Position numbers and translations under genes: made by a program. Shown here piece after piece: positions 34,455 to 40,467 of a stretch of DNA of 64,000 nucleotides; the stretch's first letter is position 1, and each line of letters opens with the position of its first letter. The DNA is from Aggregicoccus sp. 17bor-14 (GTDB taxonomy: Bacteria > Myxococcota > Myxococcia > Myxococcales > Myxococcaceae): positions 62,001-126,000 of the forward strand of contig NZ_VJZZ01000013.1 in the NCBI RefSeq assembly GCF_009659535.1, given 5' to 3'. Below the pieces are notes generated by a model. The model did not search any database. It saw only the letters and a list, made by a program, of their open reading frames with translations, and was not told where the DNA came from.

Positions 34455-36008
34455 GTGAGCACCCGAGGACAGTCCCGCTTTGGGTCCATCCCCGGAGGGA
34501 CTAGGGTGCAGGACCCTCGGGTTCAAAGTACCTGGGTGCAGCCGGTAGCCAAGAAAACGCGCGTGATCCCCCACAAATTGCTCAGCCCACCCAGCGAGAC
34601 CCGCCCCACCATCTGGGTGGTAGACGACAGTGCGGCCGAGACCGAGGTGGTGCGCCAGGCGCTGGCCCCGAGCTACCACGTGGCGACCTTCCGCGACGGC
34701 GCCGAGATGCTGGAGGCGCTCGCCCGGCTGCAGGCGCCGGAGGTGCTGGTGCTGGACTGGCTGATGCCGGGGCTCTCGGGCATCGAGGTCTGCCAGTTCC
34801 TGCGCGCCAACCAGGCGACCGAGGCCCTGCCCATCCTGATGCTCACCTCGCACTCGCGCCCGGAGGACCTGGTGGCGGGGCTCGCCGCGGGGGCGAACGA
34901 CTACGTGACCAAGCCCTTCCGGCCGGGGGAGCTGGTGGCGCGCGTGGCGGCGCTGGTGCGCATGCACCTCTTGCGCGAGCGGGCCGAGCGCGCGGAAGGA
35001 GCGGCGCTGGCGCTGCTCGCGGGGCTGCCCGAGGCGCTGCTCACCATCGACAGCGCGGGGCGCCTCACCTACGTGAACGCGGAGGCGGAGCGGATGCTGG
35101 GCCGCGGTGCGCGCGAGCTGCTGGGGCAGCCGGTGCGCGAGCTGCTGCCCGGGCTCGCGGTGGACCAGATCCCGGACGTGAGCACGGAGCTGTTCCCGCT
35201 GCCGGACGTGCGGGTGGGGGATGCCTGGTACGCCCCCGTGGTGCGCCCGCTCGCGGTGGACGCGGCGGCGAGCACCACCATCTCCTTGCGCGACGTGACG
35301 GCGCAGCGGCTGCTGGAGGCGCGGCGGCTGGACTTCTACTCGGTCATCGCGCACGACCTGCGCACCCCGCTGCAGGCGGTGCTCCTGCGCACCCAGCTGA
35401 TGCTCGCGGGCAAGGGCGGCACCCTGAGCGAGCAGCACCGCCAGGACCTGGGCCGCATCCAGCAGCGCATCGGCGAGCTGGGAAACCTGGTGGGGGACTT
35501 CCTCGAGCTCGCGCGCCTGGAGGCGGCGGGGCTGAAGCTGGAGCCGCAGCCGGTGGACCTGCCGGACCTGCTCTGCGACACCTTCGACGACTTCCAGGTG
35601 CTCGCGGACAACAGCGGGGTGCGCCTCGAGTGCGCCCCGCGCGGCCAGCGCGCGATGGTGGTGGGGGACCGCCGGCGGCTGGGCCAGGTGGTGAACAACC
35701 TGGTCTCCAACGCCATCAAGTTCACCCCCAAGGGCGGCCGCGTGGAGGCGCGCGTGGAGCTGACGGAGGGCTGGGTGGAGACGCAGGTGCAGGACACCGG
35801 GCGCGGCATCGCGCCCGAGGAGCTGCCGCGGCTCTTCAACCGCTACACGCGCGCGGAGGACGCGGGCGCGGTGAGCGGCACGGGCCTGGGGCTGATGATC
35901 GTGCGCGAGATCGTGGAGGCGCACGGCGGCAGCGTGGGCGTGCACAGCGAGGCGGGCGCGGGCAGCACCTTCTGGTTCCGCCTCCCGCGCGCCGACCCGG
36001 CGGCGTAG
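34455..36008 (+). CDS. Receiver-PAS-histidine kinase
   Basis: 517 aa if the GTG at 34455 is used; later in-frame GTG codons (34535, 34563) are plausible because the first 40 residues look non-domain. Receiver (about 52-175): VVDDS, Asp101 in LDWLMPG, TKPFRP. PAS (about 180-285). HisKA with His300 in AHDLRTPL; HATPase with canonical QDTGRGI and GTGLGLMIV. It lacks the DFTRAR signature, so it belongs to a different kinase lineage from those at 6.7-24 kb. It lies 166 bp upstream of the KaiC-like gene on the same strand. Confidence 0.9.
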   Translation: MSTRGQSRFGSIPGGTRVQDPRVQSTWVQPVAKKTRVIPHKLLSPPSETRPTIWVVDDSAAETEVVRQALAPSYHVATFRDGAEMLEALARLQAPEVLVLDWLMPGLSGIEVCQFLRANQATEALPILMLTSHSRPEDLVAGLAAGANDYVTKPFRPGELVARVAALVRMHLLRERAERAEGAALALLAGLPEALLTIDSAGRLTYVNAEAERMLGRGARELLGQPVRELLPGLAVDQIPDVSTELFPLPDVRVGDAWYAPVVRPLAVDAAASTTISLRDVTAQRLLEARRLDFYSVIAHDLRTPLQAVLLRTQLMLAGKGGTLSEQHRQDLGRIQQRIGELGNLVGDFLELARLEAAGLKLEPQPVDLPDLLCDTFDDFQVLADNSGVRLECAPRGQRAMVVGDRRRLGQVVNNLVSNAIKFTPKGGRVEARVELTEGWVETQVQDTGRGIAPEELPRLFNRYTRAEDAGAVSGTGLGLMIVREIVEAHGGSVGVHSEAGAGSTFWFRLPRADPAA

Positions 36009-36174
36009 GCGCCGCTCCCACCGGAGCCTCACCGGCGCCGAAGCAGCGGGTAGCGAACAGTGCAGGCGACACGGCGGGCGCACGCTGCTGGGCGGATTGG
36101 ACTCCATCCCCAGAATCGTTATGTCCCGAGGCGCGGTCGATCTCCTTCCGCCCCTGCTCAGGCAAGGACGTGTG

Positions 36175-37641
36175 ATGGACGGCAGTCCCCGCCCCCTCTT
36201 CTCCACCGGCATCCCCAGCCTCGACCTGCTGCTGGGCGGCGGCATCCCGCATCGCCAGAGCGTGATCGTCACCGGCGACCCGGGCTGCGGCAAGACGGTG
36301 CTCTGCAGCCAGGTGGCCTTCCTCGCCGCGGCGCGCGGCCTGCCGGTGGTGGTGGCCACGGTGACGAGCGAGCCGCACGACAAGCTGATGAGCGAGCTGT
36401 CCGGCTTCTCCTTCTTCCGGCGCGAGCTGCTGGACGAGAAGCTCTTCGTCATCAGCGCCTACGCCACGCTCAAGCGCGGGGCGAAGGAGACGCGCGAGCT
36501 GCTGGTGCAGACGGTGCGCGAGCGCGGCGCGAAGCTGCTCTTCATCGACGGGCTGCGCGCCATCCGCGACCTGTGGCAGGACGAGGCGCGGCTGCGCGAG
36601 TTCCTCTACGAGCTGGGCATCGGGCTGGCCGCGGCGGACTGCGTGGGGCTGTTCACCACGGAGTACCCGCTCGAGCGGCTGCTCGCGCTGCCGGAGGCCA
36701 CCACGGTGGACGGCATCCTCTCGCTCGCGGTGAGCCGGCGCTCGGCGCGGCGGCTGCGGCGCGCGGAGGTGGTGAAGCTGCGCGGGCAGGCGCACCTCAC
36801 CGGCGAGCACCTGCTGCAGATCGACGCGGGCGGCATCACCGTGCTGCCGCGCCTGGAGGCCCTGCCGGTGGCGGAGCCCGAGGTGGTGCAGCACGCGGAG
36901 CGCGCGGGCTTCGGGCTGCCGGAGCTGGACAGCCTGCTGGACGGCGGGCTGCCGCTCTACGGCAGCACGCTGCTGGCCGGCAGCATGGGCATCGGCAAGA
37001 CGCTGCTCGCCGCGCACTTCGCGGCCGAGGGCGCGCGCCGCGGGCAGCCCACGCTCTTCGTCTCCTTCTTCGAGCACCCGAGCGCGCTCGCGCTGCGCGC
37101 GGGCCGCGTGGGGCTGGACATGCTCGCCCACGAGAAGAGCGGCCTGCTCTCCTTTCTCTACCAGCCGCCGGTGGAGGCCGAGGCGGACGTGGTGACCAAC
37201 CGCATCCTGCAGGAGGTGGCGCGGCGGGGCGTGAAGCGCCTGGTGGTGGACGGGCTCACCGAGCTGGAGCTCTCCATCGCGGACCCCGAGCGCCGCCGCA
37301 CCTTCCTCGCCGCCCTCACGCTGCGCCTGCGCCTGACCGGGGTGACCACGCTGTTCACCCGCGAGGTGCCCAAGATTGCCGGCACCGAGCTGGACTTCAG
37401 CGACGCGCCGGTGGCCGGGGTGGCGGAGAACCTGCTGCTGCTGCGCTTCGTGGAGCTGCGCGGGCGCATCCACCGCATCCTGAGCATCCTCAAGATGCGC
37501 GACAGCAAGTACGACAGCGACCTGCGCGAGTTCGAGATCTCGGACGCGGGCGTGCGCGTGCTCGCCCCGCTGCGCAGCGCCGAGGGGCTGCTCACGGGGC
37601 AGGCGCGCCCCATCGGCAGCAGCATCGGCAGTGCGTCATGA
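36175..37641 (+). CDS. KaiC-like double-domain RecA-family ATPase
   Basis: 488 aa from the ATG at 36175, preceded by AAGGACG; ATG 36121 or TTG 36097 would add 18-26 residues without domain value. Two tandem KaiC domains: domain 1 with STGIPSLDLLLGGGIP, Walker A GDPGCGKT (34-41) and LLFIDGL; domain 2 with FGLPELDSLLDGGLP, Walker A GSMGIGKT (269-276) and LVVDGLTE. The catalytic Glu pair of KaiC is SE in domain 1 and FE in domain 2, so one Glu is kept in each. The stop overlaps the next ATG (ATGA), tying it to a receiver-kinase. No kaiA or kaiB is nearby, so a clock is not implied; an ATP-driven signalling role with the kinase is inferred. Confidence 0.92.
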   Translation: MDGSPRPLFSTGIPSLDLLLGGGIPHRQSVIVTGDPGCGKTVLCSQVAFLAAARGLPVVVATVTSEPHDKLMSELSGFSFFRRELLDEKLFVISAYATLKRGAKETRELLVQTVRERGAKLLFIDGLRAIRDLWQDEARLREFLYELGIGLAAADCVGLFTTEYPLERLLALPEATTVDGILSLAVSRRSARRLRRAEVVKLRGQAHLTGEHLLQIDAGGITVLPRLEALPVAEPEVVQHAERAGFGLPELDSLLDGGLPLYGSTLLAGSMGIGKTLLAAHFAAEGARRGQPTLFVSFFEHPSALALRAGRVGLDMLAHEKSGLLSFLYQPPVEAEADVVTNRILQEVARRGVKRLVVDGLTELELSIADPERRRTFLAALTLRLRLTGVTTLFTREVPKIAGTELDFSDAPVAGVAENLLLLRFVELRGRIHRILSILKMRDSKYDSDLREFEISDAGVRVLAPLRSAEGLLTGQARPIGSSIGSAS

Positions 37642-38723
37642 GCCGCCCGGCGCGCGTGCTGGTGGTGGAGGACGAGGCGGCGCTGCTCGAGGTCTTCGCC
37701 GAGGTGGTGGAGGGGCTGGGCTACGAGGCCCAGCGCGCACACGACGGCGAGCAGGCGCTGCTGATGGCCCGCAGCGAGCCGCCGGACCTGGTGGTGAGCG
37801 ACCACATGATGCCGCGGCGCACCGGCGTGGACCTGATGCGCGCGCTGCGCGCGGAGCCCGCCACGGCGCGCGTGCCCTTCGTGCTGCTCAGCGCGGCGCT
37901 GCCCGCGGGGCGCGAGGAGGCGCTCGCCTTCCTGCAGAAGCCGGTGGACCTGGCCACCTTCGAGGCCACGGTGTGCGGCGCGCTCGGCGAGCGGGCGGTG
38001 CCCCTGCCCGCCCCGCGCAGGAGCAGCAGCGGGGGCGAGAGCGCGGGGCGCGAGGAGATGCTCAACTGGGTGGCGCACGAGCTGAAGACGCCCCTGAGCG
38101 CCGCGCGCCTGCACGCCCAGGTGCTCGCGCGCAAGCTCTCGGAGCACGGCCCGGCGTGCGAGCCGGAGCGCCGGGCAGCGGACGCGGTGCTGCGGCAGCT
38201 GGACCGGATGAACGGCCTGGTCAGCTCCATCCTGGACGCGGCGCGCCTGAGCGACGGCAAGGTGGCGTTGCAGGCCGAGCGCCAGGACCTGTGCGCCTGG
38301 CTCTCGCAGGCGGTGGACGAGTGGCGCGAGCTGCAGCCGCAGGTGCGCTTCGAGCTGCGCTGCGAGGAGGCGCGCCTGCTGCTGCACTTCGACGCCGCGC
38401 GCCTGCGCCAGGTGCTCGACAACCTGCTGTCCAACGCCGTGAAGTACGGCGGCGAGCGGCGGCAGGTGGAGGTGGGGCTGAGCACGAGCGCGGGGCTGGT
38501 GGTGGTGCACGTGCGCGACTGGGGCCAGGGCATCCCGGCCTCCGAGGTGCCCAACATCTTCGACCGCTTCCACCGCGCGGACGAGGACGTGGGCCGCGGC
38601 CACGGGCTGGGGCTCTACATCGCCAGCGCGCTGGCGCGGCTGCACGGAGGCTCGCTCAGCGTGAAGAGCGCGCTGGGCGAGGGCTCCACCTTCAGCGTGC
38701 GGCTGCCCCTGTCGCGCAGCTGA
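37638..38723 (+). CDS. Receiver-histidine kinase coupled to KaiC-like ATPase
   Basis: 361 aa. Receiver about 5-120 (VVEDE, Asp55 in VSDHMMP, Lys101 in LQKPVD), short Ser/Gly linker, HisKA with His147 in AHELKTPL and HATPase with canonical RDWGQGI and GHGLGLYIA. No PAS or membrane segment, so its signal must come through the receiver or from the KaiC-like protein, with which it is translationally coupled. This recalls KaiC-SasA/CikA partnerships, although it has no KaiB-like sensor domain. It is 7 bp before the next kinase. Confidence 0.93.
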   Translation: MSRPARVLVVEDEAALLEVFAEVVEGLGYEAQRAHDGEQALLMARSEPPDLVVSDHMMPRRTGVDLMRALRAEPATARVPFVLLSAALPAGREEALAFLQKPVDLATFEATVCGALGERAVPLPAPRRSSSGGESAGREEMLNWVAHELKTPLSAARLHAQVLARKLSEHGPACEPERRAADAVLRQLDRMNGLVSSILDAARLSDGKVALQAERQDLCAWLSQAVDEWRELQPQVRFELRCEEARLLLHFDAARLRQVLDNLLSNAVKYGGERRQVEVGLSTSAGLVVVHVRDWGQGIPASEVPNIFDRFHRADEDVGRGHGLGLYIASALARLHGGSLSVKSALGEGSTFSVRLPLSRS

Positions 38724-38730
38724 CCTGCCC

Positions 38731-40467
38731 ATGTCCGCCGACGCCGAGCTCCAGTCCTTCCTCGACCTGCTCGCCGCGAGCGGGGAGATGGGCGCGCTCT
38801 ACCTCGCGCACCCCTGGGAGGACTCGCCGCTGGGGCCGCCCGCGCGCTGGAGCCGCAGCCTGCGCAACGCGGTGGCGATGATCCTGCGCATGCCCACCCC
38901 GGCCATCGTCTTCTGGGGCCCCGAGCAGCGGCAGCTCTACAACGCCGGCTACGCGCTCATCATGGGCCCGCGCCACCCGCGCTTTCTCGGCAGCCCCTAC
39001 CGCGAGTGCTGGCCGGACACCGCGCCGATGCTGGACCCCTGGATGCAGGACGTGTTCCTGCGCGACCGGGTGTTCTCGGTGGACCACGCGCACATCCCCC
39101 TCACCCGCCACGGCTTCACCGAGGAGGCCTACTTCACCTTCACCTTCAGCGCCCTGCGCGACGACGACGGGCGCATCGGGGGGCTGTGGCAGCCGGTGGT
39201 GGAGGTGACGGGCGGCGTGCTCAGCCAGCGGCGCACCGACACGCTGCGCGAGCTGGCGCTGCACCTGGGCCAGCTGGACACCGCGAGCCTGGACCTGGAG
39301 CGCGCGCTCGCGCCGGGCGCGCGCGACGTGCCCTTCTGCGTGCTGCTGGAGCAGGCGCCCGGCGAGCGCGGGCTGCAGCTGCGGGCGCAGGCGGGGCTGG
39401 AGCTGAGCGCGCAGGGACTGCAGGCTCTGGACGGACTGCCGCGCCTGCGCGCCGCGGCGCTGCGCGCGCTGGAGACGCGCGCGAGCGTGGCGCTGGAGGT
39501 GCTGGACGCGCCGCTCGCCCACGCGCCGCGCCGCCCCTGGCCCGAGCCCAACGCGCAGGCGCTCGCGCTGCCGCTGCAGGAGGAGGACGGCACGCGCGGC
39601 GTGGTGGTGCTGGGGGTGAGCCCGCGGCTGCGCCTGGACCAGAAGTACCGCGAGTTCCTCGAGGCGCTCGCGCGCGAGCTGTCCGTGCAGCTCGCCGCGC
39701 AGCGCCAGCGCCGCGCGCAGGCGCTGCTGCTGCAGCAGCTGCGCGAGGCGGTGCGCTCGCGCGACGAGTTCCTCTCCATCGCGAGCCACGAGCTCAACAC
39801 GCCGCTGACCTCGCTGCGCCTGCAGACCCAGCTCGCGCACCGCGCGCTGGCGCAGGAGGACGGCAGCCTGGACGGCGCGCGCGCCGTGCGCTGGGTGGAG
39901 CAGGCGGAGCGCAGCACCACGCGGCTCGCGCGCCTCGTGGGAGACATGCTGGACATCTCGCGCATCGCCACCGGCAAGCTCGCGCTGCAGCTGGAGTCCT
40001 TCGACCTGGCGGAGCTGGCGCACGAGTGCGTGGAGCGGCTCGCGCCCCAGGCGCAGGCGCAGGAGACGCGGCTGGTGCTGGGCCCGTGCACGCCGGTGCA
40101 CGGGGCGTGGGACCGCTTCCGCATCGAGCAGGTGCTCGCGAACCTCGTCACCAATGCGCTGCGCTACGGCGAGCGCTCGCCGGTCACCGTGACGGTCGGG
40201 GCCGCGCGGGGGCCCGGGGGCCCGAGCGCGCTCTTGAGCGTGCGCGACGAGGGGCCGGGCATCGCGCCCGCGGACCAGGAGCGCATCTTCCAGCGCTTCG
40301 AGCGCGCCGTGGCGGACCGCAACAACACCGGCCTGGGGCTGGGGCTCTACATCTGCCGCGAGATCGTGGAGCGCCACGGCGGCAGCATCGAGGTGCAGAG
40401 CGCCCCGGGCGCGGGCACCACCTTCGTGGTGCGGCTGCCGGCCGCGAGCCCGCCGCGAGGGGACTAG
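38731..40467 (+). CDS. PAS-GAF-type sensor histidine kinase
   Basis: 578 aa. The N-terminal PAS-type domain (about 10-165) begins with the typical HPWEDSPLGPPARWSRSLRN motif and FWGPEQRQLYNAGY. A degenerate GAF-like domain (about 170-335) and a coil lead to HisKA with His353 in SHELNTPL, where Asn replaces the usual Arg/Lys, and HATPase with RDEGPGI and GLGLGLYI. Third gene of the KaiC cluster, 7 bp after the receiver-kinase. Its TAG overlaps that of the convergent receiver gene in a shared CTAG. Confidence 0.9.
   Translation: MSADAELQSFLDLLAASGEMGALYLAHPWEDSPLGPPARWSRSLRNAVAMILRMPTPAIVFWGPEQRQLYNAGYALIMGPRHPRFLGSPYRECWPDTAPMLDPWMQDVFLRDRVFSVDHAHIPLTRHGFTEEAYFTFTFSALRDDDGRIGGLWQPVVEVTGGVLSQRRTDTLRELALHLGQLDTASLDLERALAPGARDVPFCVLLEQAPGERGLQLRAQAGLELSAQGLQALDGLPRLRAAALRALETRASVALEVLDAPLAHAPRRPWPEPNAQALALPLQEEDGTRGVVVLGVSPRLRLDQKYREFLEALARELSVQLAAQRQRRAQALLLQQLREAVRSRDEFLSIASHELNTPLTSLRLQTQLAHRALAQEDGSLDGARAVRWVEQAERSTTRLARLVGDMLDISRIATGKLALQLESFDLAELAHECVERLAPQAQAQETRLVLGPCTPVHGAWDRFRIEQVLANLVTNALRYGERSPVTVTVGAARGPGGPSALLSVRDEGPGIAPADQERIFQRFERAVADRNNTGLGLGLYICREIVERHGGSIEVQSAPGAGTTFVVRLPAASPPRGD

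Follow-up and report, generated by a model that had tools for sequence, protein, structure and literature searches.

The closest described relatives of this locus come from a 2011 survey by De Luca et al. (PMC3164672), the available portions of which describe two kinds of kaiC neighbourhood. In the 'black group', a gene for a two-domain KaiC with one or no phosphosite is followed directly by a receiver gene, and KaiB is absent. In the KaiC-Nt_HK 'dark-blue group' (Rta_04330/Rta_04340), kaiC is systematically followed by a kinase gene, again with no kaiB; the pair is co-transcribed in Ramlibacter, its KaiCs keep phosphorylatable residues and the N-terminus of its kinase is 19% identical to a receiver. 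SasA, the KaiC-binding kinase of cyanobacteria, reads an active clock through its N-terminal domain, a KaiB-like thioredoxin fold that is the presumed KaiC contact. Archaeal KaiC-like 'hubs' include ATPase-inactivated forms (iKaiC) and, in Methanosarcinaceae, receiver-fused forms (Makarova 2017, as cited in PMC5847659). The archaeal protein ArlH binds ATP without hydrolysing it, and its ATP-bound form is thought to stimulate the ATPase of a partner (PMC8978795). Myxobacterial KaiC homologues, from the same group as the organism analysed here, have been reported to lack the B-loop, with no kaiA, few kaiB and about 50 proteins without phosphosites; the available text of that paper ties them to bacteriophytochrome and rhythm and, in its treatment of the KaiC genes, does not mention receiver or receiver-kinase partners (PMC11832031).

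We analysed a 64-kb window (contig C13:62001-126000 of the source genome, G000; genome size 6.9 Mb) in which the gene for a KaiC-like protein overlaps that of a histidine kinase. Neighbourhoods of the kaiC-receiver and kaiC-kinase kind are already known from 2011 (PMC3164672), as are inactive KaiC-like proteins. What is new is that the two genes are strictly co-inherited and always coupled by 4 bp, that the ring-1 glutamates are lost in every orthologue, and that a separate KaiC clade has as its partner a true receiver fused to a kinase; the available text of the 2011 survey does not report a catalytic-glutamate loss of this uniformity, a coupling by 4 bp or co-inheritance across whole genomes. 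The window pair shares the features of the 'black group', with at most one KaiC phosphosite and a receiver immediately downstream, but differs in that its receiver forms one protein with a complete histidine kinase. It resembles the 'dark-blue group' in gene order and in having no kaiB, but its KaiC phosphosites are gone and its receiver is bona fide. The archaeal hubs and ArlH/FlaH are also KaiC-family proteins, some of them inactivated, and ArlH acts on a partner; they differ in being archaeal and in having other partners, and ArlH is single-domain. Judging from sequence, we consider it somewhat better than an even bet that the window pair is one signalling module, in which a KaiC-like ATP-binding double ring would be a nucleotide-dependent scaffold or switch for its co-translated kinase and not a clock.

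The KaiC-like gene (36175..37641, + strand) starts at ATG 36175, downstream of an AAGGA motif and in a start region that agrees with the orthologues, and ends at TGA 37639-37641. Its putative promoter likely lies within the 166 bp that separate the ATG from the stop of the upstream gene (36009..36174, +). The stop of the KaiC-like gene and the start of the receiver-kinase share 4 bp (ATGA; 37638..37641, +). Our comparison covered a single genome of the source genus and a family set of 96 genomes, which includes Myxococcus, Corallococcus, Pyxidicoccus and Archangium relatives. A KaiC orthologue was found in 46 of the 96 (source included), the other 45 being 55-77% identical. Orthologues of the receiver-kinase (E <= 1e-80) were found in exactly those 46 genomes, and both genes are absent from the remaining 50. 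The pair is always adjacent, in otherwise differing surroundings, and the 4-bp overlap recurs in all 45 other orthologous loci (ATGA in 43, GTGA in 2). At high identity, the receiver-kinase never occurs without the KaiC-like gene. Inside pair-bearing genera, genomes lacking one gene also lack the other (examples are 11 genomes of g19, G002 in g2, and G036, G038 and G040 in g7), a sign that the two were lost or gained together. Except within local clades, no third shared gene was found beside the pair across the orthologous loci.

The KaiC-like gene and the receiver-kinase are a real two-gene unit, paired far beyond chance. The initial annotation had reported the ATGA overlap and left conservation of the pair to be checked; the overlap held in every locus and the linkage proved to be conserved. 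We think it improbable that the two are inherited together as operon partners that make no direct contact, such as members of one pathway that need only matched expression. Adjacency by itself cannot prove contact, but the invariance of the overlap and the joint presence or absence in 96 genomes argue against so loose an association, as does the need of a sensor-less kinase for an input.

A second kinase had been grouped with the unit in the initial annotation. This third gene (38731-40467; Pfam HisKA and HATPase_c) starts at ATG 38731, 7 bp past the receiver-kinase stop. Both the gap and the kinase were described correctly, but the 'PAS-type' label is only probable, because the PAS_4 match is under threshold (23.0 bits, cut-off 23.1); a GAF_3 match (24.8 bits, cut-off 27) is under threshold as well. 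The short gap would fit a system of three genes, with both kinases served by the KaiC-like protein. We consider this very unlikely, since the third kinase is beside the pair in none of the 45 orthologous loci, and it was rejected as a unit member. Furthermore, of 149 receiver domains detected genome-wide the window holds 13, where its length would predict ~1.4, and in DNA so dense in signalling genes adjacency says little for counting the third kinase as a member. The receiver-PAS kinase upstream (34455-36008) was likewise rejected, as it is not beside the pair in orthologous loci. At C13:50248-52112, ~10 kb before the window start and ~47 kb from the window pair, a paralogous KaiC-receiver pair that overlaps by GTGA precedes a CHASE3 kinase.

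The KaiC-like protein (488 aa) contains two Pfam KaiC domains (PF06745, E 3.5e-69) and belongs to the KaiC family, with a double RecA fold and Walker A and Walker B motifs; HMMER found its best solved relatives to be KaiC hexamers. Both Walker A motifs are intact, with Lys and Thr invariant across orthologues. In the ring-1 (CI) motif, GDPGCGKT (aa 34-41; 36274..36297, +), G34, P36, G37, G39, K40 and T41 are invariant in the 46 orthologues, and the same is true of G269, G272, G274, K275 and T276 in the ring-2 (CII) motif, GSMGIGKT (aa 269-276; 36979..37002, +). The Walker B Asp is nearly invariant (D125 in 46/46, D359 in 44/46) and the arginine-finger positions, R203 and R442, are each kept in 46/46.

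The residues that distinguish a clock-type KaiC gave a different picture. HMMER alignment to solved KaiC placed T64-S65-E66 (36364..36372, +) at the catalytic Glu-Glu site of ring 1. Taking this pair to be E77/E78 (S. elongatus numbering), both glutamates are replaced by T/S, with a Glu shifted one residue later (E66), and T-S-E is found in 46/46 orthologues. In ring 2, F299-E300 (37069..37074, +) aligned with E318-E319; residue 299 is F, H, A or S among the orthologues, so that the first Glu is lost, while residue 300 is E or D. Neither ring therefore has the EE catalytic pair that is conserved in cyanobacterial KaiCs (PMC5520375). A414-G415 (37414..37419, +) occupy the autophosphorylation sites S431/T432. 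These phosphosites are not conserved: position 414 is A in 41 orthologues and S in 5, and position 415 is variable, with S/T in 9/46. Alignment to solved KaiC shows a shortened loop where KaiB binds, in line with the published account of myxobacterial KaiCs (PMC11832031), and the score against the circ_KaiC equivalog TIGR02655 (NCBIfam), 127.6 bits, is below the cut-off of 546. A search of the whole source genome found neither KaiB nor KaiA, and KaiB is absent from 39 of the 46 pair-bearing genomes.

Most likely, then, the KaiC-like protein is without clock chemistry, its ring-1 glutamates, autophosphorylation sites and KaiB-binding loop apparently all lost. With the ring-1 glutamates replaced in every orthologue and the first ring-2 Glu lost, binding of ATP is more plausible than its turnover. 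The ring probably binds ATP with little or no turnover and no autophosphorylation cycle, though the Glu next to the lost pair (E66) and the E/D at position 300 make some slow ATPase activity possible. The initial annotation was right that both Walker A motifs are intact and that KaiA and KaiB are missing, which now extends to the whole genome, but its choice of 'ATPase state' as the coupled variable sits badly with the glutamate losses. The same losses bear on whether the pair is a reduced timer (hourglass or clock) of the KaiC-SasA type that works without KaiA and KaiB. Fold and Walker A motifs match KaiC, and two papers contain speculation along these lines, on Ramlibacter KaiC-HK pairs (PMC3164672) and on myxobacterial KaiCs (PMC11832031). 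We give the timer little credence, given the missing glutamates, the unconserved A/G at the phosphosites and the general lack of KaiB.

The receiver-kinase (37638..38723, +; 361 aa) consists of Response_reg, HisKA and HATPase_c by Pfam, which detected no further domain, including between the receiver and HisKA, and no separate sensor. Receiver residues E11, D12, D55, S85 and K101 are invariant in 46/46 orthologues, as in a canonical receiver and not a pseudo-receiver. In the kinase core, H147 and the N and G boxes are conserved in the orthologues (N266, D294 and the glycine boxes). Where SasA has its KaiB-like domain, this kinase has Response_reg, and no KaiB-type domain was matched anywhere in the source genome. 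The kinase had been described as lacking both a sensor and a KaiB-like domain and as carrying a receiver with room for feedback; the domain search agrees with the first two points, and the full set of phosphorylation residues with the third. Three receiver-kinases that are 46-48% identical to that of the window (L192, L193 and L194) have no KaiC within ~2.9 kb upstream and are candidate orphan relatives of the partner kinase. This kinase type can thus work without KaiC, which weakens the idea that it is KaiC-specific.

We found that receivers also adjoin related KaiCs, a point missed in the initial annotation. Five of the six double KaiCs of the source genome directly precede a receiver domain, four of these with a 4-bp overlap; the chance of such adjacency in 5/6 is about 3e-8. 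After the KaiC at C7:177952, the next gene is a kinase without receiver. When a KaiC-linked receiver was used as query, KaiC-linked receivers ranked 1-4 and 8 of the genome's 149. Of 60 further paralogous KaiCs in the family, 59 are followed within 30 bp by a receiver, which in all cases but one stands alone, without an output domain. Five plasmid KaiCs from alpha- and betaproteobacteria, examined by profile, combine a ring-1 change of the same kind with a downstream receiver. At nine annotated plasmid KaiC loci the next gene encodes a response regulator in six, a diguanylate cyclase in one, an unnamed 130-aa protein in one and, in one, an HWE kinase that is followed by a response regulator. 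With a receiver after nearly every related KaiC, we regard the receiver as the constant partner and the fused kinase as the mark of one KaiC clade. This rule suggests that receivers may replace KaiB/SasA as the partner of bacterial KaiCs. The sole paralogue of the 60 without a receiver directly downstream is L149 (G041:C68:354349-358900). The KaiC at L015:6779-9799 (G000:C7) is the only one of the source genome to retain Glu at the ring-1 position (FEL); 3 bp after it begins the gene of a kinase whose ~190-aa N-terminus is unassigned and stands in place of a receiver.

These neighbours bring in the main rival to the ring-to-kinase switch. In the reverse direction, the kinase together with its receiver would be the input, and its phosphorylation state would control the KaiC-like ring, which would act on some other target, as single receivers would do beside the other KaiCs. 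Partners that begin with a receiver and mostly end there are more readily taken for an input to KaiC than for an output, and the phosphorylation residues are kept in 63/63 receivers examined. In this clade, however, the receiver shares its protein with a complete kinase that is an obvious output, and the conserved unit encodes no target for KaiC. We see the reverse direction as a serious but minority possibility.

Phylogenies were used to ask where the receiver-kinase came from. Receiver-kinase-partnered KaiCs form one clade of the KaiC tree (support 99/99), and those partnered by bare receivers fall on the other side (85/98). Receivers linked to KaiC cluster in the receiver tree much more than by chance, yet they are not monophyletic (AU p 0.0004); a simple history of co-divergence from one ancestral pair therefore does not hold for receiver and KaiC. 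By the same test we rejected the possibility that the window's receiver belongs to one co-diverging KaiC-linked clade to which a kinase was added. It groups with the receiver of a KaiC-linked receiver-kinase in G044, which has a more distant pair of the same kind (L137), and with one unlinked receiver of the source genome. Together with the KaiC-less relatives, the two trees suggest a probable single recruitment of the receiver-kinase type by one KaiC lineage, as opposed to its derivation from an adjoining bare receiver.

Returning to the ring-to-kinase switch, the inseparable inheritance, in many myxobacteria, of a KaiC apparently without clock chemistry and a kinase without sensor suggests that the former is probably an ATP-controlled switch for the latter and not a clock. 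For a kinase that is co-translated with a nucleotide-binding ring and, at high identity, never found without it, a role of the ring as sensor or scaffold is the simplest model. The N-terminal receiver would be the probable docking point, in place of the KaiB-like domain of SasA. An ATP-bound ring, as opposed to an ADP-bound or unassembled one, would set kinase activity; the signal would go to an unlinked response regulator, and docking would be tuned by receiver phosphorylation. ArlH suggests a precedent for an ATP-binding KaiC-like switch, and a sequence that keeps Walker A but has lost the catalytic Glu is consistent with one. Physical contact, the receiver as contact site, a ring in which ATP is bound and not hydrolysed, and the direction of the signal are all features that we infer. 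The full version, in which a clock-less KaiC double ring reads the ATP/ADP state, docks on a true receiver and signals to a sensor-less kinase, is tentative, and we would put it well short of even. If true, it would be an energy-sensing two-component input with a separate hexamer as sensor, and an instance of a wider family of KaiC-receiver switches in bacteria.

KaiC homologues without KaiA and KaiB are common outside cyanobacteria, and the pair offers a two-protein test system for the role of a clock-less KaiC. It is present in culturable, genetically tractable myxobacteria, Myxococcus xanthus strain AM003 being among the named genomes with an orthologue. The pair was also found in a Deltaproteobacteria MAG (L113), with a KaiC 53% identical to that of the window. 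There the KaiC homologue (L113:1720-3135) is split over two reading frames, by a frameshift or an assembly error, and the receiver-kinase 12 bp downstream is intact. Finally, a KaiC 71% identical to that of the window was found in BNCN01000003.1 (L100), a record titled 'Comamonas sp. KCTC 72670'. Its 767,272-base contig is identical to one in the family genome G066, so the 'Comamonas' record looks mislabelled.
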